This document shows positions 30,469 to 38,620 of a stretch of DNA of 45,580 nucleotides, in pieces. The notes beneath the pieces are model-generated. The model did no database searches, was not told the DNA's origin, and saw nothing but the letters and a program-made list of their open reading frames with translations. Every line of letters starts with the position of its first letter. The first letter of the stretch is position 1. The position numbers were made by a program, and so were the translations under genes. Source of the stretch: Flavipsychrobacter stenotrophus (GTDB taxonomy: Bacteria; Bacteroidota; Bacteroidia; Chitinophagales; Chitinophagaceae). The DNA lies in NCBI GenBank assembly GCA_945902755.1, contig CAMDNC010000005.1, positions 1 to 45,580 of the forward strand, written 5' to 3'.

Positions 30469-31239
30469 ATGCTTTTTCCTGTGCGCACATACCAACTAGT
30501 TCTACTTTTTCTTTGTTCTTTTGCAGTTATTACACAGGTATCTGCACAGCAAAGAAGAGGCAAGAAAATGCAGCCACCCAAAGAGCCGAAATTTATTGAA
30601 GATATATATCTTGATGGTCATGTGCGTACTAAAGCGACAGTTAATGCCATAGAGTCTCGTAAAAAAAGTAATAAAGATCTTCCAAATAAGACAGTTGAGA
30701 CGGGAAATACAGTACACCAAGTTGTTGAGGTTCCTGTTGATAAAGACACGATAGTTGTTTCACACATTAAGGATGATAACTCCATTGATCTTTCCTCTGG
30801 AAATCTGTTGAGCGAAAAATATGCTAAGATATTAGGGATGTCCTCAGGTGAATTGCTAAATGTAAACTTATACAAATTTGTAGATAAGTGGTATGGAACG
30901 AATTATAGATTGGGTGGATTTAGTGAAAAGGGTGTAGATTGTTCTGGATTCACTAAAATGCTATATCAAGAAGTTTACGGTATTGAATTGACCAGAACCT
31001 CAGTGGAACAACATAAAAACGCAAATAGAGAAAAGTTGCATACTAATGCAAAAGAGGGAGATTTAGTTTTTTTTAGGCAGCGTAGTAAAAGAATAAATCA
31101 CGTGGGCGTATATTTAGGAAATTCATTCTTTATACATGCGTCTACATCTCATGGGGTAATGATTAGCAGTCTAACAGAAACTCATTGGAGTAAATCTTTT
31201 GCAGGCATAGGTAAAATCAGTAGTACATCAGGAGAGTAG
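30469..31239 (+). CDS. NlpC/P60 family cell-wall endopeptidase (C40)
   Basis: 256 residues. Signal peptide 1-27 (ending QVSAQ), a basic linker to ~115, then a C40 domain at about 128-254. The catalytic triad is visible: Cys158 in GVDCSGFTK, His211 in NHVGVYLG and His223 in FIHAST. The preceding WYGTNYRLGG is the usual first strand. Members such as MepS/Spr cut gamma-D-Glu-mDAP or related peptide cross-links in peptidoglycan. The last 12 bp overlap the 3' end of the convergent response-regulator gene. The only alternative start (Met34) would lose the signal peptide. Confidence 0.92.
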   Translation: MLFPVRTYQLVLLFLCSFAVITQVSAQQRRGKKMQPPKEPKFIEDIYLDGHVRTKATVNAIESRKKSNKDLPNKTVETGNTVHQVVEVPVDKDTIVVSHIKDDNSIDLSSGNLLSEKYAKILGMSSGELLNVNLYKFVDKWYGTNYRLGGFSEKGVDCSGFTKMLYQEVYGIELTRTSVEQHKNANREKLHTNAKEGDLVFFRQRSKRINHVGVYLGNSFFIHASTSHGVMISSLTETHWSKSFAGIGKISSTSGE

Positions 31240-31692
31240 TTTCTGACGGAGTAGAAACTCCAGTTGGTCATTAGACAAACTAAGTTTATTCGTTATTTCC
31301 CTTTCATTCATTTTTTGTTTATAAACATCAAAAGCCCTTGTTATAGTTATATCTAGTTCGTCTTCGTTCCATGGTTTTGATAAGTAATGAAAGATTTTAC
31401 CTTTATTTACAGCATCTATAACAGCGTTCATATCAGCATATCCGGTTAGTAGTATTCTTATAGGGTCGGGGAACTCATTCAAAATAGACTCCAAAAATTC
31501 AACCCCGGTCATCTGAGGCATTCTTTGGTCCGTTATAATCAAGTTTACCGTGTTATTTCTTAAAATTTTTATTGCTTCTTCGCCACTAATAGCAGTAAGT
31601 ATATTATATTTAATCCTGAAAACAGCTTTAAACGAAATGAGGTTGTTCATTTCATCATCAACATACAATATTGATATTTTTTCTTTAGTCAT
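31228..31692 (-). CDS. Single-domain response regulator
   Basis: 154 residues: a receiver domain (about 7-122) with VDDE (11-14), phosphoacceptor Asp55 in IITDQRMPQMTG, the LLTGYAD switch Thr region and Lys106 in SKPW, then a ~30-residue helical tail without an output domain. It resembles the receiver part of the hybrid kinase at 37132 closely (shared pattern DDE.NNL..FKA.FR..Y, then DQRMP..TGV.F and VIDAVN.G.IF.Y..KPW), so the two are paralogues. It is transcribed away from the Rv1355c-like gene, with a 90-bp region in between that must hold both promoters. It probably passes phosphate or interacts with the kinases of this cluster. Confidence 0.92.
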   Translation of the reverse strand: MTKEKISILYVDDEMNNLISFKAVFRIKYNILTAISGEEAIKILRNNTVNLIITDQRMPQMTGVEFLESILNEFPDPIRILLTGYADMNAVIDAVNKGKIFHYLSKPWNEDELDITITRAFDVYKQKMNEREITNKLSLSNDQLEFLLRQKLLS

Positions 31693-31782
31693 TTTGTATA
31701 GTTAAAATGAGTTTTCGTATGTGATATATGATATTAATAGCTGTTTCTGTAAAATTAGCAAACTTATTCGTTTAACAATAAA

Positions 31783-34113
31783 ATGTTCGGTGTGTTAACA
31801 AAAATTATTCAGAAGAAAGTTTCATACAACACTGATGCTCAAGCACTTCACAAGCCAGTATTTTTCCGTGTATATAACGATGCTGACAATGAAGCGCTTA
31901 CTAAATTGTTAACTGAAAACGACAGCATTACTGTACACGACACGATTAAATCTCAATTAAAGGAACTAATTAAGACAAAGTTTCCAAAGCAAACACTTAC
32001 ATTAGAGCAATATGAAGAAAAGGTACTAGAACATCTTAATGGACATCCTATAGATGAATATGGTGTATGGGTTTATTATCCTTGGAGTAATAAATTGGTT
32101 CATATATTGGATGAAAAAGAATTTGTAGATCTTCGTACCTCTGCAAACCGCAATAAAATCACTACCGCCGAACGAGATTTGCTGGCAACCAAAAAGGTTG
32201 GAGTTATTGGATTGTCTGTAGGTCAATCAGTTTCTCTTACTTTGGCCTTAGAGCGTGGTTGTGGCGAATTGAGAATAGCAGACTTTGACACGTTAGAATT
32301 AAATAATCTAAACCGTATTCGCACTGGTGTACACAATTTAGGTTTACTAAAGGCATATGCAGTAGCAAGGGAAATTGCCGAGATTGATCCTTTTTTCAAA
32401 GTAGTATGTTACACAGAAGGCATAACGGAAGATAATATACATGATTTCTTTACAGATGGCGGTTTGCTAGATATAGTAATTGATGAGTGCGATGGTGTAA
32501 ATATTAAGATACTTTGTCGTCTAAAAGCTCGCGAACTTAATGTGCCTGTGCTTATGGAAGCCAGTGATAGGGGAACAGTAGATGTTGAAAGGTTTGACCT
32601 AGAGCCTGATCGCAAAATTATGCATGGATGGTTGGAGCACTTACCTATAGATTTCAAAGTACTCAACAATCTTAAAACTAGCGAGGAGAAATTACCTTAC
32701 ATTTTGCCCATATCTGGTCTCGAAACACTTTCGCCAAGGATGAAAGCGTCAATGGTAGAAATACAACAAACTATCACTACGTGGCCTCAACTGGCTACTG
32801 CAGTTACATTAGGTGGAGCAGTAACAGCAGATACCTGCAGACGAATTTTTCTTAATCAATTTACAGATTCAGGTAGATATTTTATCGATCTAGAAAAATT
32901 GATGCCTGACACACGACCAAAAGAAAAAAGTCCTCTTTTGTTTACTTCCTCTGAAAGTGAATTGTCTACTGAAGAATTACAAAATATCGTTGCACAGTCT
33001 TCGGTTTTATTTTCAGCCCAAAGTAATCCGCCAGGTTTAGATGTTATTGAAGAGTTAATTAAAGCAGCCATAAAAGCACCTTCAGCAGGCAATAATCAAC
33101 CTTGGAATTGGCATTTTGAAAATAATCTGTTATTTTTATTACACGACAGGGTTAGATCGGTCTCCTTCGGCGATTTTCAGCATATCGCATCATATATTGC
33201 GTTGGGCGCGGCTATCGAGAATCTTAACTTGGCTGCTTTTCACCACGATATAAGAACAACTGTTCATTACTTTCCTACATCGGATTCTAGATGTACTGCC
33301 GTAATTCAGTTTTCTCCGCAGCAAAACGGTGTCAATTTGTTTCAACCTTCTGCGCTTTATGCTGCTATAGATACTCGAATTACTAATCGGAATTTAGGAC
33401 CCAGAATTCCTCTCACCGAATCTCAGGTAGATATTCTTAAACAAGCAGTATTTTCTGTCGATGGTGCAGAACTTCACCTTAGACATAGCTCTGCCGATTT
33501 GGATGAGCTTAAAGAAATTATGAGTGCGGCAGAGAGATTACGTATGTTGCATATTGAAGGTCATTATGAATTCTATGAAAAAGAAATTAGATGGAATGAT
33601 GAGCATAGCCGCACTACTGGTGATGGCATAGACATTGCCACTGTTGATATTTCTGCATCAGACAAGGTTGGCTTAAAATTGGTTAAGGATCCGGAAGTTG
33701 TTAAGTTATTAGCAGATTGGCGTGGAGGTAAAGCGTTAGAAAAAATAGCTGTAAAAGCTATCGATAGTGCTTCGGCAGTTGGACTGATTACAATGCCAAA
33801 GTTTGCTTCTACCGACTATTTGAATGGCGGTAGAGCAGTAGAGCGATTGTGGTTGACAGCAGCTCACATTGGCGTATCAATGCAGCCCATGCTTGCAGCA
33901 ACTTTGCACTTTGCAAGATTAAAATATGGGAATGGACAAGGTTTACCAGATTTCATGAAGGTAGAGTTTTCGGAATTGCATCAAAGATTCCTTGGAATTT
34001 ATCCTGAAGCACAAGGACGGGCTGAAGTATTTTTATTCAGATTAAGTTTGGCTGATTTGCCGTCAGTTAAATCTTATAGGTATCCAATAGAAAAGGTTTT
34101 TAAACAATCTTGA
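31783..34113 (+). CDS. Rv1355c (MoeY-like) family protein: E1/ThiF-like domain fused to nitroreductase-like domain
   Basis: 776 residues, no signal peptide. Residues 1-~130 are a family-specific N-terminal part. The ThiF/E1-like adenylylation domain spans about 135-300: KVGVIGLSVGQSV (138-150), IADFDTLELNNLNRI (165-179) and VIDECDGVNIK. Zn-binding Cys pairs and the activating Cys of E1 enzymes are not seen. Residues ~415-770 are a nitroreductase-fold flavoprotein domain with KAPSAGNNQPW (431-441) and TRITNRNLGPR (531-541) contacting FMN. M. tuberculosis Rv1355c has the same order and is annotated moeY only by similarity. Function is unknown: adenylylation of a carboxylate followed by flavin reduction or oxidation is a reasonable inference. 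The GNAT-like gene starts 13 bp after its stop. Confidence 0.87.
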   Translation: MFGVLTKIIQKKVSYNTDAQALHKPVFFRVYNDADNEALTKLLTENDSITVHDTIKSQLKELIKTKFPKQTLTLEQYEEKVLEHLNGHPIDEYGVWVYYPWSNKLVHILDEKEFVDLRTSANRNKITTAERDLLATKKVGVIGLSVGQSVSLTLALERGCGELRIADFDTLELNNLNRIRTGVHNLGLLKAYAVAREIAEIDPFFKVVCYTEGITEDNIHDFFTDGGLLDIVIDECDGVNIKILCRLKARELNVPVLMEASDRGTVDVERFDLEPDRKIMHGWLEHLPIDFKVLNNLKTSEEKLPYILPISGLETLSPRMKASMVEIQQTITTWPQLATAVTLGGAVTADTCRRIFLNQFTDSGRYFIDLEKLMPDTRPKEKSPLLFTSSESELSTEELQNIVAQSSVLFSAQSNPPGLDVIEELIKAAIKAPSAGNNQPWNWHFENNLLFLLHDRVRSVSFGDFQHIASYIALGAAIENLNLAAFHHDIRTTVHYFPTSDSRCTAVIQFSPQQNGVNLFQPSALYAAIDTRITNRNLGPRIPLTESQVDILKQAVFSVDGAELHLRHSSADLDELKEIMSAAERLRMLHIEGHYEFYEKEIRWNDEHSRTTGDGIDIATVDISASDKVGLKLVKDPEVVKLLADWRGGKALEKIAVKAIDSASAVGLITMPKFASTDYLNGGRAVERLWLTAAHIGVSMQPMLAATLHFARLKYGNGQGLPDFMKVEFSELHQRFLGIYPEAQGRAEVFLFRLSLADLPSVKSYRYPIEKVFKQS

Positions 34114-34126
34114 ATACTTAATTTAC

Positions 34127-34819
34127 ATGATTAGGATAAGAGCATTTAGAGCTGTTGATGATGTTGAGGCCTGCAATTTGTATGCTCTTGAGCACATGGA
34201 AATATTGAAAATATTTGGTATTACCAAAATAACTACAGCAAATAATAGTTGGATAACAAACCCAAACGTTTACGTTATTCTTGCAGAAAGAATTTCAGAT
34301 AACTACCCGGTAGGTGGTGCACGAATCCACCTTTATCATCCTGAATACCCACTACCAATGGATGACGCGATCAAAGAATTCGATCCAAACGTAAAGAATA
34401 TTCTTGCTCAACATGCCGCAAATGGCGGAACAAGCGAAATATGCGGATTGTGGAATGCGAGATCCGTAGCCGGATGGGGTATTGGTACATTATTTCTTGC
34501 ACGTGCGGGTGTTGCTATGTGTACCCAGTTGCCATTGAATTCTATGTTTGTTTTATGCGGTGGTCACACCATAGGCATAACATTAGAAAAGGGTTTTACT
34601 ATTGATGAAAGACTAGGAAATAAAGGTACCTTTTATTACCCCAAAGAGGGCTTAGTGGCTACAGCAGGAATTATCAATAATGTTTATGACCTCAAACATG
34701 CAAAGGATGAGGATAAAAAAATAATAGAAAACTTAAGAGCAAATCCAGAACAAAAACGAACAGAAAGCACAGAAAAAGTAACGTTTGATATTGAATATCG
34801 TTTGAATCTTAATTTATAG
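34127..34819 (+). CDS. GNAT-fold acyltransferase-like protein (LuxI/FeeM-like arrangement suspected)
   Basis: 230 residues, cytoplasmic. A strand NVYVILAERI (47-56) leads into PVGGARIHLYHPEYPLPM (61-78), then SEICGLWNARSVAGWGIG (103-120) and a helix rich in Ala. The order '(Y/V)vi...GgaR(I/L)...P...LP...E...' followed by a GxG (116-118) acyl-CoA/ACP phosphate loop is that of GNAT proteins. It is reminiscent of acyl-homoserine lactone synthases and FeeM-type N-acyl amino acid synthases (Y/L, GxxRL, P.ML, WE.SRF), though residue identity is low and the LuxI Arg/Glu set is not all present. The start (ATG 34127) lies 13 bp after the Rv1355c-like gene, so the two are coexpressed. The C-terminal ~40 residues are charged. 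Substrate unknown. Confidence 0.6.
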   Translation: MIRIRAFRAVDDVEACNLYALEHMEILKIFGITKITTANNSWITNPNVYVILAERISDNYPVGGARIHLYHPEYPLPMDDAIKEFDPNVKNILAQHAANGGTSEICGLWNARSVAGWGIGTLFLARAGVAMCTQLPLNSMFVLCGGHTIGITLEKGFTIDERLGNKGTFYYPKEGLVATAGIINNVYDLKHAKDEDKKIIENLRANPEQKRTESTEKVTFDIEYRLNLNL

Positions 34820-34891
34820 AGCAGTGATTTGCAACCAGATTCCTTTTTTGACATAAAGTATTTTTTAGCCCAATAACATTTCCTTTTTCTA

Positions 34892-34921
34892 TTGTTTTTC
34901 TTGTTATTTGCGGTATCTTCA
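34892..34921 (+). promoter_or_regulatory. Candidate promoter of the histidine kinase operon
   Basis: TTG (34892-34894), 19 bp, then TATCTTCA (34914-34921), a variant of TAnnTTTG. It lies 59 bp before the ATG at 34981, in the 161-bp gap after the GNAT-like gene, so the kinase genes may be transcribed separately from the enzyme pair. Confidence 0.38.
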
Positions 34922-34980
34922 CATGGTGTTGTTCTGATTCTTTATTAATTTCATATCTAACCATTGTTATAGGGAGTGCA

Positions 34981-37125
34981 ATGAATACTTTTAGATGGAT
35001 ATTTATTGTTGTATGTCTACTTGGGTCGAATGCTCTGCATGCGAAAGAATACAAGTACACTAATGCTCGAGATTTAAATATTATTGGAAACAACTTCGAA
35101 TACCTAGAAGATAAGTCTGGAAAAATGACCTTTGAAACAGTTATTGAATCAAAGGATTTTAAATTAACTGGTGTAGATGTTCCCAATTTTGGGATTACAA
35201 AATCTGCTTTTTGGCTCCGATGTATTATCGAAAACCAAACACAAGAGCGAGATTTGTTTTTGAATCTACAGTATCCTTTAATTGACCAGGTATTACTTTA
35301 TTTAGTAGATACCGCAGGTAATTATACAGTAGATACTTCAGGAGAAATGGTTCCTGTTAATGCCAGGAAGTTCACAAACCACAATTTTATCTTTAGGCTC
35401 AACATTCGTCCTGGTAAGCATAAAATGGTTTACTTGCGTGTGTCTAGCGAAGAGCAAATATTGGTGCCAATAGCTCTTGGAGGTTATTCAGCGATATTTC
35501 AAGCTGCTAACAGGCAAGATATACTAACTGCAGTATATTTTGGTATCGTTTTCGTGATGGTATTTTACAATTTTTTTGTATACCTAAGTGTAAGAGATAA
35601 AAGTTACTTGGTCTATGTAGCATATATTGTCTTTATTGGTCTTACTCAAATAGCATTGCAAGGATATAGTTATAGGTTCTTTTGGCCTTCCTTTCCCAAC
35701 TTTGCCAATCAAACAGTAATATGGTTTCCTGCTATTACTGGCATATTAGCTATTGAGTTTTTTAAGCGTTTTTTACAAATAGCGTCTTATTCCAAATATT
35801 TCGTTTGGATTCTTAACACACTCAACATATTTTATGGTATCAACTGTTTTCTTAGTGTTGCAGGTTACCATCAGTTGAGCCAACAGTTAATGCAACCCAA
35901 TGCTATGTTGGCTTCTTTGGTTATTCTTCTCATTTCCATTTATGCTATTCAAAAGAATAACAGGTCGGCTAGGTTTTTCCTTTTTGCTTGGGTCGTATTT
36001 TTGGTTGGTATAGTTGTTTTTATAATGAAAGACCTAGGAAAAGTTCCATTTAACAACTTTACTAATTATATTCTTCATATTGGATCTGCAATCGAAGTAG
36101 TAGTTCTCTCTTTTGCTCTTGCAGATAAAATCAATATTTTCCGGAAGGAAAAAGAACAATCTCAAGCTGACGCTTTAGCAGCATTAAGAGAGAACGAACG
36201 TATAATACGCGAGCAAAATGTTATGCTCGAAAAGATGGTTAACGAAAGGACTTTTGAGCTAAAACTTTCTAACGAAGGTCTTAATAAAGCATTGATAGAA
36301 CTGAAAGAAGCAGAAACACAACTTGTTGAGTCTGAAAAGATGGCATCACTAGGTCAGCTTACCGCTGGAATAGCTCATGAAATTAATAATCCTATAAATT
36401 TTGTAACATCTAATGTAAAACCTCTGAAAAGAGATGTATTAATACTTATAGATACTATTGAAGAATTAGAACAAATAATTAAGTCTGGTGTTCCTTTACC
36501 AGAAAAGCAGCAAAGAATACAAGAATATAAATTAGAAATCGATTATGATTACCTAAAGCTTGAAATTGATCAATTATTATTGGGAATAAGTGAAGGTGCA
36601 GGAAGAACCGCGGAAATTGTAAAAGGACTAAGAATTTTTTCTCGTCTAGATGAAGATGATATTAAAAAGGCGGATATAAATGAAGGTCTTGATTCTACTC
36701 TTATCATAACTAACAATTTGCTCAACAACACAATAAAAGTCATCAAGAATTACAACAACTTACCGTTGATAGAATGTTACCCCGGCAAGCTGAATCAAGT
36801 TTTCCTAAACATTATTTCTAATGCAGTATATGCAGTACGTAAAAAATTTGCGGACAAAGAAGGGGGCAGTATCACTATTGCTACAAAAGCTGACGAAGAC
36901 TATATTTACATTTCTATAGCTGACAATGGGATTGGTATGGACGACAATACCAAAAAAAGGCTCTATGAGCCCTTTTTTACCACCAAAGATGTAGGTGAGG
37001 GTACTGGTTTGGGTATGTCTATTGCATATAACACCATCATTAAACATAATGGTCACATAAATATTATTTCAGAATTAGGAGTAGGAACAGAATTTATTAT
37101 TAAATTACCATTGATTCAAAAATAG
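34981..37125 (+). CDS. 7TMR-DISM sensor histidine kinase
   Basis: 714 residues. Signal peptide 1-21; periplasmic 7TMR-DISM extracellular domain 2 at about 25-170 (SAFWLRCIIENQT, LNLQYPLIDQVLLYL); seven membrane segments between ~180 and ~382; coiled coil 385-455; HisKA with the phosphoacceptor His466 in GQLTAGIAHEINNPINF; HATPase with N box (LNIISNAVYAV), G1 DNGIGM (648-653), EPFFTTKD and G2 GTGLGMS (674-680). DISMED2 domains are jelly-roll folds that in related proteins bind carbohydrates or other small molecules. There is no attached receiver, so it must pass its phosphate to a separate one; three receivers are encoded next to it. Confidence 0.95.
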   Translation: MNTFRWIFIVVCLLGSNALHAKEYKYTNARDLNIIGNNFEYLEDKSGKMTFETVIESKDFKLTGVDVPNFGITKSAFWLRCIIENQTQERDLFLNLQYPLIDQVLLYLVDTAGNYTVDTSGEMVPVNARKFTNHNFIFRLNIRPGKHKMVYLRVSSEEQILVPIALGGYSAIFQAANRQDILTAVYFGIVFVMVFYNFFVYLSVRDKSYLVYVAYIVFIGLTQIALQGYSYRFFWPSFPNFANQTVIWFPAITGILAIEFFKRFLQIASYSKYFVWILNTLNIFYGINCFLSVAGYHQLSQQLMQPNAMLASLVILLISIYAIQKNNRSARFFLFAWVVFLVGIVVFIMKDLGKVPFNNFTNYILHIGSAIEVVVLSFALADKINIFRKEKEQSQADALAALRENERIIREQNVMLEKMVNERTFELKLSNEGLNKALIELKEAETQLVESEKMASLGQLTAGIAHEINNPINFVTSNVKPLKRDVLILIDTIEELEQIIKSGVPLPEKQQRIQEYKLEIDYDYLKLEIDQLLLGISEGAGRTAEIVKGLRIFSRLDEDDIKKADINEGLDSTLIITNNLLNNTIKVIKNYNNLPLIECYPGKLNQVFLNIISNAVYAVRKKFADKEGGSITIATKADEDYIYISIADNGIGMDDNTKKRLYEPFFTTKDVGEGTGLGMSIAYNTIIKHNGHINIISELGVGTEFIIKLPLIQK

Positions 37126-37131
37126 GATACA

Positions 37132-38238
37132 TTGAGTACTGGACGCAAAATACAGGTGTTATACATTGACGATGAGCAAAACAATCTCAATGGATTTAAA
37201 GCCACATTCAGGTTTGATTACACTATTTTTATAGCATCAGATACTGTTAAGGCTTGTGAGTACTTAAGAGATTTTCCAGAAATAAGTGTGATTTTATGCG
37301 ATCAGCGAATGCCAGAGAAGACTGGTGTTCAGTTTTTTGAAGAAATCCGTGTAGAATTCCCCAACCCTGTTAGAATGCTCATCACAGGATATACCGATAT
37401 TGAGTCTGTAATAGATGCTGTAAATCGTGGGCATATTTTCAGATATATCAAAAAGCCTTGGACAGACAGTGATATAAGATCGGCAATAGAAGAAGCCAAT
37501 AAATTTTTCTTAACTAATGCCTTACTTGTTGCTAAAAATAAAGAACTCACCTCGGCATACGCCGAACTAGGCAAATTTGCTTATAGTATCACACACGATG
37601 TACGTGGCCCGCTACTTAGTATTATCGGTGCATTAGATCTTGCAAAAGGTATGGACGACCTGACCGAGCTTAGAGAGTTGCTAGGCTTAATGTCCGATGC
37701 AGTTACAAAACTAGATGAATACATTAAAAACACCCATGAATATTACAAACTAAAACGTGGTCAATTGCTTTTTTCTGAAATTGACCTCAATGTTCTTTTG
37801 TCTGACATTGCTGCTTTATTCAAAATAGCTGGCAGGAATAACAATATTCAGTTCACTTCAAATGTTATTCAAAACAAGCCATTTTACTCAGATGAAATAT
37901 CTATAAAAATGATTCTGAACAATCTACTTTCCAATGCATTTAATTATCAACGTAAAAATGCAAAGGAAAAATATGTAGACGTGGTAATGGAAGTAGTTGA
38001 GAATGACCTTGTTATAACAGTAAAAGATAATGGAATTGGGATACATGAAAATCACATAAATAACATATTCGATATGTTTTACAGGGCCACCTCTGAAGAA
38101 ACCGGATCTGGATTAGGGCTTTACAATGTTAAAGATGCGCTCAACAGATTGGAAGGTACCATAGAGGTGCAGTCAGTAATAGATAAAGGGACTACATTCA
38201 CCGTTACAATACCAGGAAAATCACATGGCGCAGTATAA
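37132..38238 (+). CDS. Response regulator-histidine kinase hybrid (REC-HisKA-HATPase)
   Basis: 368 residues, cytoplasmic. N-terminal receiver (1-~122) with Asp57 in ILCDQRMPEKTG and Lys108 in IKKPW; then HisKA with His155 in YSITHDVRGPLL; then HATPase with NNLLSNA (263-269), G1 DNGIGI (299-304) and G2 GSGLGL (325-330). The order REC first, kinase second implies that phosphorylation of the receiver controls the kinase, so it relays a signal from the 7TMR-DISM kinase to the next receiver. The start is TTG at 37132, 6 bp after the kinase stop; no ATG occurs before residue 60. The receiver is a paralogue of the minus-strand regulator at 31228. Its stop overlaps the next gene by 14 bp. Confidence 0.93.
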   Translation: MSTGRKIQVLYIDDEQNNLNGFKATFRFDYTIFIASDTVKACEYLRDFPEISVILCDQRMPEKTGVQFFEEIRVEFPNPVRMLITGYTDIESVIDAVNRGHIFRYIKKPWTDSDIRSAIEEANKFFLTNALLVAKNKELTSAYAELGKFAYSITHDVRGPLLSIIGALDLAKGMDDLTELRELLGLMSDAVTKLDEYIKNTHEYYKLKRGQLLFSEIDLNVLLSDIAALFKIAGRNNNIQFTSNVIQNKPFYSDEISIKMILNNLLSNAFNYQRKNAKEKYVDVVMEVVENDLVITVKDNGIGIHENHINNIFDMFYRATSEETGSGLGLYNVKDALNRLEGTIEVQSVIDKGTTFTVTIPGKSHGAV

Positions 38239-38620
38239 CAAATTGAATTTTATTGTCATTGACGATAGCAAGTTAGATTGTTTTATCGCCGAAAAAATCA
38301 TTAAAAACACTGGTAAGTGCGAATCAGTGATGTCTTTTTTACAAGCTAAAGATGCACTTCAATTTATTTCCTCGGCTACTCCCGACGACTTGACACATAC
38401 AATTATTCTAGTTGATATTCAGATGCCTGTAATGAATGGTTTCGAATTTGTAGAGGCTTTTGAAAGCTTACCTGGCAGTGTTGTAAATAACTACACGATT
38501 TACGTTATATCTTCTTCCATTAATGAAAATGATTTGCATAAGGTACACAACTATAAATCTGTAAAACAATTCTTAAATAAACCACTTACTAGCAATAACC
38601 TCTCTTTGTTGCTTTCCTGA
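38225..38620 (+). CDS. Single-domain response regulator (CheY-like)
   Basis: 131 residues, one receiver domain only: IDDS (12-15), phosphoacceptor Asp64 in ILVDIQMPVMNG, the Ser/Thr switch in YVISSSIN and Lys119 in NKP. It belongs to a different receiver subtype than the two DQRMP-type receivers of the cluster. The ATG overlaps the end of the hybrid kinase gene, so it is translationally coupled and is the probable phosphate acceptor of the hybrid. Having no output domain, it should act through protein interaction. Confidence 0.93.
   Translation: MAQYNKLNFIVIDDSKLDCFIAEKIIKNTGKCESVMSFLQAKDALQFISSATPDDLTHTIILVDIQMPVMNGFEFVEAFESLPGSVVNNYTIYVISSSINENDLHKVHNYKSVKQFLNKPLTSNNLSLLLS

Follow-up and report, generated by a model that had tools for sequence, protein, structure and literature searches.

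A candidate acyl-based signalling module of Bacteroidota that pairs an acyltransferase of acyl-homoserine lactone synthase-like fold with a 7TMR-DISM histidine kinase

We analysed a stretch of 45,580 nucleotides from Flavipsychrobacter stenotrophus (assembly GCA_945902755.1, contig CAMDNC010000005.1, positions 1 to 45,580; hereafter the window), and within it a six-gene module in which a TrzS-like fusion of a ThiF domain and a flavin oxidase and an N-acyltransferase are encoded beside a 7TMR-DISM histidine kinase, a hybrid of receiver and histidine kinase (REC-kinase) and two lone receivers, REC1 and REC3 (Table 1). The acyltransferase, rather than ThiF, is the constant partner of the kinase: in all 102 unique acyltransferase loci with full context, a complete 7TM kinase lies on the same strand at most three genes downstream. 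The earlier note on this DNA had proposed that the enzymes make a compound which the kinase senses, the whole being a self-contained module. This core proposal is supported by the adjacency, and further by the exchange of the tailoring enzymes between loci, by the co-divergence of synthase and sensor, and by the module kinase being the single match to 7TMR-DISM_7TM (PF07695) in the draft genome of the window. We consider it probable that the product of the cluster is the ligand of the kinase and that the module is a signalling system.

The 102 loci were retained from 142, of which 14 were dropped by a rule of >60% shared 5-mers (the window collapsing onto its near-twin L003), 10 because they had no acyltransferase (L011, L028, L033, L036, L037, L039, L040, L041, L102 and L106) and 16 because of short flanks; the plasmid loci L115-L117 and L183-L185 stand outside the counts. 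Adjacency of enzymes and kinase in related genomes, on which the note had made its proposal depend, was thus found throughout this set. The tailoring gene, by comparison, is exchanged: 51 loci carry ThiF fused to the nitroreductase-family oxidase (ThiF-NTR), 27 ThiF alone, 6 a methyltransferase, 8 an ICMT, 2 a flavin adenine dinucleotide (FAD) oxidase and 8 none.

A sample of 294 genomes of the same family, chosen independently of the kinase, gave a similar picture. The acyltransferase was present in 89 of them, and wherever its locus had 4 kb or more of downstream sequence the kinase was present too (81 of 81, counting close duplicates). TrzS had no match in 33 of the 89, and in 32 of 32 loci from these genomes the kinase is again at most three genes away, the 33rd (G107) ending at a contig edge. 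The enzyme gene of the 32 loci encodes an S-adenosylmethionine methyltransferase (8), an ICMT-type membrane methyltransferase (10) or an FAD-binding oxidase (3), while nothing was recognised between acyltransferase and kinase in the other 11, two of them at contig edges; two examples of each replacement enzyme were confirmed by Pfam and the others by profile. Across a phylum-wide sample of 395 genomes the acyltransferase occurs in 13, 4 of which are also in the family sample, and the kinase stands beside it in 13 of 13 loci. Sensors of this clade scoring at least 320 bits, a cut set after the list had been seen (the next full-length score is 312), were found at 90 places in 89 of the 294 genomes, 87 of them acyltransferase-positive. 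The two other genomes are G271, where TrzS is present and the contig starts, and G282, which has the sensor kinase and no acyltransferase nearby. A second module-type sensor kinase (L178, G266:C53, at 8523, 421 bits) in a congener of the window's genome likewise has no acyltransferase nearby and is a possible orphan receptor.

With TrzS as the anchor, 42 named loci were obtained, 38 of which belong to Bacteroidota (judged by title or kin) and 4 to Patescibacteria or Myxococcota, with matches in 57 of the 294 family genomes and in 10 of the 395 genomes of the phylum-wide sample. From 83 loci including the window, 6 sharing >60% of 5-mers were dropped, leaving 77, and 14 with short flanks, leaving 63 that were counted; the genes of relatives were classified by profiles seeded from the window proteins. 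The acyltransferase and the 7TM kinase are each present in 60/63, the REC-kinase in 56/63, the divergent receiver in 53/63, the final receiver in 47/63 and all five in 42/63, and two-component genes are rare from the third position upstream and the fifth position downstream of TrzS outwards. Both 7TMR-DISM sensor families were recognised by Pfam in 63/63 aligned sensors. The module is also present in named Bacteroidota strains, e.g. of Mucilaginibacter, Pedobacter and Dyadobacter; the culturable Mucilaginibacter arboris (L005), Pedobacter xixiisoli (L014) and Dyadobacter psychrotolerans (L016) each carry it in full. Since the arrangement recurs across Bacteroidota while the outer flanks vary, chance does not account for it. 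The alternative kept by the earlier note, plain clustering with no functional tie, to which linkage by descent may be added, can point to component families that each occur alone elsewhere and to a ThiF and oxidase without the kinase at L011 and L028, both from one metagenome-assembled genome (MAG); however, the 102 loci have stayed linked through replacement of the gene in between and through variation of the outer flanks. We rejected it on the TrzS-anchored, 102-locus and family-sample neighbourhood counts, and regard it as highly improbable.

Some loci depart from the common layout. The three TrzS-anchored loci that lack both acyltransferase and kinase are L011 and L028, two ThiF/oxidase loci of Bacteroidota MAG bin-10221 with neither gene alongside, and L039 from Patescibacteria. 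In L033 (a Cytophagales contig) ThiF directly adjoins the 7TM kinase and no acyltransferase lies in the stretch examined, L077 (G089) has a tandem pair of acyltransferase copies between the ThiF-oxidase gene and the kinase, and in L037 (a Myxococcota contig) the ThiF gene overlaps a large gene for an HK-REC-HK hybrid kinase (HK, histidine kinase) at its start. In the Patescibacteria loci L039, L040 and L041 the kinase that adjoins ThiF and a nitroreductase-family oxidase has another type of 7TM sensor (PF16927, HisKA_7TM); on alignment their third partner proteins share too little for one clear family.

Co-divergence was measured on disjoint matched pairs, which replaced a global all-pairs distance correlation that was not controlled for kinship and gave weak values (acyltransferase-sensor r 0.40, partial 0.28; acyltransferase-kinase partial 0.33). 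The three rows without tailoring enzyme that lie at contig edges (L121, L138 and L176) were removed. Given kinase divergence, the acyltransferase correlates with the 7TM domain (r=0.65 in 47 disjoint kinase-matched pairs, 0 of 5000 permutations being as extreme) and with DISMED2 (r=0.55), and ThiF correlates with the 7TM domain (r=0.62, n=31). In pairs matched in the same way the values were 0.01 for acyltransferase and REC1, 0.21 for acyltransferase and the kinase of the hybrid, and 0.03 for 7TM and REC1; same-type pairs gave r=0.66 for acyltransferase and 7TM (n=42). We also followed the sensor kinase segment by segment in 44 hybrid-matched pairs. The acyltransferase tracks residues 20-394 (r 0.42-0.70, with the peak at 245-304), and segments starting at residue 380 or later range from 0.23 to -0.22, none significant. 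REC1, the lone receiver taken into this comparison, tracks residues 515-619 (r 0.58 and 0.55) and 605-664 (0.36), with no significant correlation to the sensor half in these 44 pairs. Thus the synthase varies with the sensor, and REC1 varies with the kinase, a pattern that would arise if signal synthase and receptor co-evolve and REC1 is the cognate receiver. Tailoring type changes least often on the sensor tree, with 20 changes for six states and 9 once the ThiF types are pooled; the corresponding counts are 28/17 on the tree of the kinase, 22/13 on that of the acyltransferase and 23/14 on that of the REC-kinase, with three contig-edge rows set as unknown and bootstraps of at most 200 columns. 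These counts point the same way, and as part of the difference may reflect how informative each domain is, we take them as supporting evidence only.

The enzyme pair looks like an N-acyl-oxazolone pathway, by analogy with characterised enzymes. The fusion protein matches NCBIfam NF005901 ('Rv1355c family') at 805.5 bits, with a curated cut-off of 476, and its nearest named relatives, at 88% and 67%, come from MAGs of Sphingobacteriales and Taibaiella, respectively. In its ThiF part Asp169, Arg178, Lys190 and Asp237 are each invariant (82/82 aligned relatives). The last three align with Arg146, Lys158 and Asp202 of a Mycolicibacterium plasmid homologue, and we take them to match the ATP-site pattern of MoeB/ThiF. 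The acyltransferase of the window has no Pfam or NCBIfam match and no PDB sequence match with E <0.41. Among 64 members of its family, 17 weakly match the GNAT family PF00583 and 2 match FeeM (best E 0.061), and of the 14 Pfam families with matches at E<=1 none is the autoinducer-synthase family. Because sequence searches gave nothing or such weak hints, the protein was assigned by its modelled fold (predicted local distance difference test score, pLDDT, 94.0; predicted TM-score, pTM, 0.91), which is GNAT/acyl-homoserine lactone (AHL)-synthase-like and agrees with the GNAT-like protein of the earlier note. The 13 best PDB matches of the model are all BjaI, FeeM, MesI or RpaI, the best at E 6.3e-8, with query TM-scores of 0.50-0.60 across the 13. 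BjaI, MesI and RpaI are coenzyme A (CoA)-dependent AHL synthases, while FeeM is an N-acyl amino acid synthase. Glu104, Gly118, Gly156, Gly167, Tyr171 and Pro172 are invariant in the alignment of relatives. PMC12856293 identifies Rv1355c as TrzS, in which a ThiF cyclase is joined to a flavin oxidase, and Rv1356c as TrzA, the two jointly making N-acyl tryptazolones; flavin-domain residues R540 and Q651 of M. smegmatis TrzS were examined there, and quenching with acetonitrile preserved the oxazolones. OxzAB and TyzACB follow the same pathway logic, and the fold of TyzA is reported as nearest to FeeM and BjaI (PMC10404671). An N-acyl amino acid could have its free carboxylate masked by ThiF, by the methyltransferases or by ICMT, and could be desaturated or oxidised by either oxidase; such roles of the exchangeable enzymes fit related signals built on one core.

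The phosphorylation sites are conserved in alignments of relatives: His466 of the kinase in 113/113, Asp57 and His155 of the hybrid each in 102/102, Asp55 of REC1 in 98/98 and Asp64 of REC3 in 61/62. REC1-class receivers have a conserved C-terminal tail ending RQKLLS, with Arg149 in 97/98 and Ser154 in 96/98, and the nearest paralogue of REC1 in the genome is the receiver of the module's own REC-kinase (122 bits; the next scores 53). REC1 is likely to partner the kinase directly. The hybrid is absent from six methyltransferase-type loci (L118, L128, L136, L142, L145 and L149, of which L145 and L149 are close duplicates), where a single receiver follows the kinase, and this sole receiver is REC1-class with the RQKLLS tail. 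Because these loci keep both proteins without the hybrid, kinase and REC1 form the minimal set and a linear relay is not obligatory. The scheme of the earlier note, with phosphate passing from kinase to hybrid to final receiver, is weakened by the six loci and by REC1, which stands outside that relay, co-diverging with part of the catalytic half; as an obligatory route we rejected it, some modules having no REC-kinase hybrid. REC1 is itself not universal, since in 4 of the 27 loci with ThiF alone the genes examined include no lone receiver. PhcQ, the lone receiver of the Ralstonia phc operon, binds and stabilises PhcA (PMC13320629) and is by analogy a possible model for a receiver without a DNA-binding domain.

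From these data we infer the product, the ligand, the phosphotransfer route, the output, the release of the product and its density dependence. The acyltransferase would acylate an amino acid with a fatty acyl group, which by analogy would come from acyl-CoA; its carboxylate would then be activated and cyclised by the ThiF domain, and the flavin domain would desaturate the ring, to give an N-acyl oxazolone as with TrzA/TrzS. The 7TM/DISMED2 half of the kinase would bind this product, probably within the membrane bundle, and binding would alter the autophosphorylation of His466. Phosphate would pass mainly to REC1, the REC-kinase hybrid and REC3 serving as accessory branches, and REC1 would probably act by contacting another protein with its conserved tail, in the way that PhcQ acts on PhcA. 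Given the exchange of the tailoring enzyme and a sensor that changes along with the synthase, related species would share one chassis and differ in their signals. Somewhat less firmly than the pairing of product and kinase, we favour a wider proposal, that of an autoinducer family native to Bacteroidota: an acyltransferase of AHL-synthase fold and an exchangeable tailoring enzyme that oxidises or caps the carboxyl group (an oxazolone cyclase with or without desaturase, methyltransferases or an FAD oxidase) would set a species-specific signal, read by a co-evolving 7TMR-DISM sensor that drives a conserved kinase-REC1 core. N-acyl oxazolones would be signals, orphan sensors may eavesdrop, and the Patescibacteria pairing would be an independent recruitment.

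Several observations weigh against the signalling proposal. ThiF also tracks segments of the catalytic half (r 0.51 at 470-529 and 0.54 at 605-664), within the ThiF-NTR class alone the acyltransferase correlates at r=0.43 with the 7TM domain (n=22, p=0.048) and at 0.57 with the kinase, and the unconditioned acyltransferase-kinase value across all types is r=0.41. With pairing by the kinase of the hybrid, the 7TM domain correlates negatively with the receiver of the hybrid (r=-0.40, p=0.009), which is unexplained. Within genera, the ratio of 7TM to kinase divergence is 2.10 for different-type pairs (n=14, three of which carry contig-edge typing) and 2.28 for same-type pairs (n=66), hence no larger where the tailoring type differs; L074 and L089 are an example of congeners with similar kinase halves and different acyltransferases. 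About 107 correlations were computed, uncorrected for multiple testing, and recombination tracts could contribute to co-divergence, the genes being DNA neighbours. Besides, the 8/102 loci without a recognised tailoring gene each have at least 1.5 kb of sequence upstream; the fold match of the acyltransferase identifies a branch and not a family, other GNATs (e.g. 1xeb) following closely; and Pfam and NCBIfam found no DNA-binding domain in the six module proteins, so that no DNA-binding regulator is encoded.

Two other functional explanations were weighed. The kinase could sense another cue, such as envelope stress, a competitor's compound or a nutrient, with the two-component proteins controlling the amount of oxazolone and the product being an output, for instance a lipid with an antimicrobial or protective role, and not the ligand. 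Regulators and enzymes often share operons, sub-inhibitory antibiotics induce oxazolone production in some Proteobacteria (cited in PMC12856293), and DISMED2 is the fastest-diverging part (median 0.72), all of which would suit this explanation; yet it gives no reason why acyltransferase divergence should follow the sensor half but neither the catalytic half nor the receivers, and the absence of an encoded DNA-binding regulator counts against it as well. We regard it as unlikely. Less likely still is a membrane or intracellular lipid read by the kinase as a metabolic or membrane-state sensor of the same cell, with no cell-to-cell signalling. No exporter was recognised in the module, and actinobacterial tryptazolones are more abundant inside cells, with acyl-tryptophan intermediates in the supernatant (PMC12856293); however, close relatives differ in synthase, tailoring enzyme and sensor, which resembles the diversification of a signal more than a housekeeping role, and sensor-like kinases without an acyltransferase nearby, such as L178, would suit the sensing of others.

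The six open reading frames of the module lie exactly where the earlier note had placed them, from which its gaps of 13, 161 and 6 bp and overlap of 14 bp follow, and its assignments of receivers, ThiF-nitroreductase, 7TMR-DISM kinase and REC-kinase are matched by Pfam and NCBIfam; the HisKA match of the sensor kinase reaches 21.1 bits, under its cut-off of 26.9. Between acyltransferase and kinase the median gap in relatives is 0 bp, with overlap in 35/73, so the 161 bp of the window are on the long side. The candidate promoter that had been suggested at 34892 was not recovered: no sigma-70 site is listed within 34820-34980, in a scan that does not cover Bacteroidota promoters.

Table 1. Genes of the module, with positions in the window.
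Feature	Position	Strand	Family or basis
REC1, lone receiver	31228..31692	-	PF00072; divergent from operon
TrzS-like fusion: ThiF cyclase (~31783-32937) and nitroreductase-family flavin oxidase (~33022-34092)	31783..34113	+	NF005901
N-acyltransferase, 230 aa, TrzA/OxzA-like in position and fold	34127..34819	+	structure model
7TMR-DISM histidine kinase: DISMED2 35086-35478, 7TM 35518-36129, kinase part from ~36301	34981..37125	+	PF07696, PF07695, PF02518
REC-histidine kinase hybrid, TTG start, PhcR-like layout	37132..38238	+	PF00072, PF00512, PF02518
REC3, final lone receiver, 14-bp overlap with hybrid	38225..38620	+	PF00072

Among the literature matches listed, in a search that did not extend to preprints or to most subscription papers, we found no description of oxazolone-type enzymes whose tailoring partner is exchangeable and which are combined with a receptor of the 7TMR-DISM type. 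PMC12856293, the most recent paper we found on N-acyl oxazolones, describes their physiological role as a major unresolved question. Their fixed pairing with a receptor kinase makes such a role directly testable, including in named Bacteroidota strains. If the proposal is true, it could explain the function of bacterial oxazolone lipids, and Bacteroidota would gain an acyl-based signalling family with a visible specificity code, made of tailoring enzyme and 7TM sensor.

Among known systems, TrzAS, OxzAB and TyzACB (Mycobacterium, Rhodococcus, Pseudoalteromonas) share with the window an Rv1355c-family ThiF-flavin oxidase fusion beside an acyltransferase of AHL-synthase/FeeM-like fold. Oxazolone production by such pathways depends on ATP and O2. 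The window differs in that its acyltransferase matches no Pfam family and in that it has a kinase module, whereas none is described for these systems in the available parts of PMC12856293 and PMC10404671. Cyclic-di-GMP genes adjoin trzAS, in a role called unresolved in PMC12856293. As a hint of a link to signalling elsewhere, we observed a GGDEF gene near the pair in 3/3 Rhodococcus plasmid loci examined (of six records; L116, L184 and L185, where GGDEF and a hypothetical gene stand beside the Rv1355c-family gene), on plasmids that may be related, and none in the stretch around two mycobacterial plasmid loci (of four records).

The Ralstonia phcBSRQ operon resembles the module in combining a synthase, a sensor kinase, a soluble REC-histidine kinase and a lone receiver, and according to PMC8578825 and PMC11960443 the phc REC-histidine kinase and lone receiver have no DNA-binding domain. 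Some relatives of the module also use a methyltransferase as tailoring enzyme; Pfam and NCBIfam found none in the window module, which has the acyltransferase and the ThiF-oxidase fusion instead. PhcB makes a fatty-acid methyl ester, whereas an N-acyl amino-acid derivative would be expected from the window; the phyla differ, and the likeness rests on gene order and layout as published. With LuxI/LuxR the module shares the modelled acyltransferase fold of the AHL-synthase/FeeM branch, and it differs in having no autoinducer-synthase Pfam match and a 7TMR-DISM kinase as its receptor, no LuxR-type receptor being found in the cluster by Pfam or NCBIfam. In comP, the sensor part is polymorphic and the kinase part conserved. 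The Bacillus comQXPA locus likewise holds polymorphic signal-making genes together with a receptor kinase (PMC4408185), and differs in its peptide signal and in its unrelated enzymes and kinase. Altogether, the module combines the gene order of phcBSRQ, the acyltransferase fold of AHL synthases and the enzymology of TrzAS.

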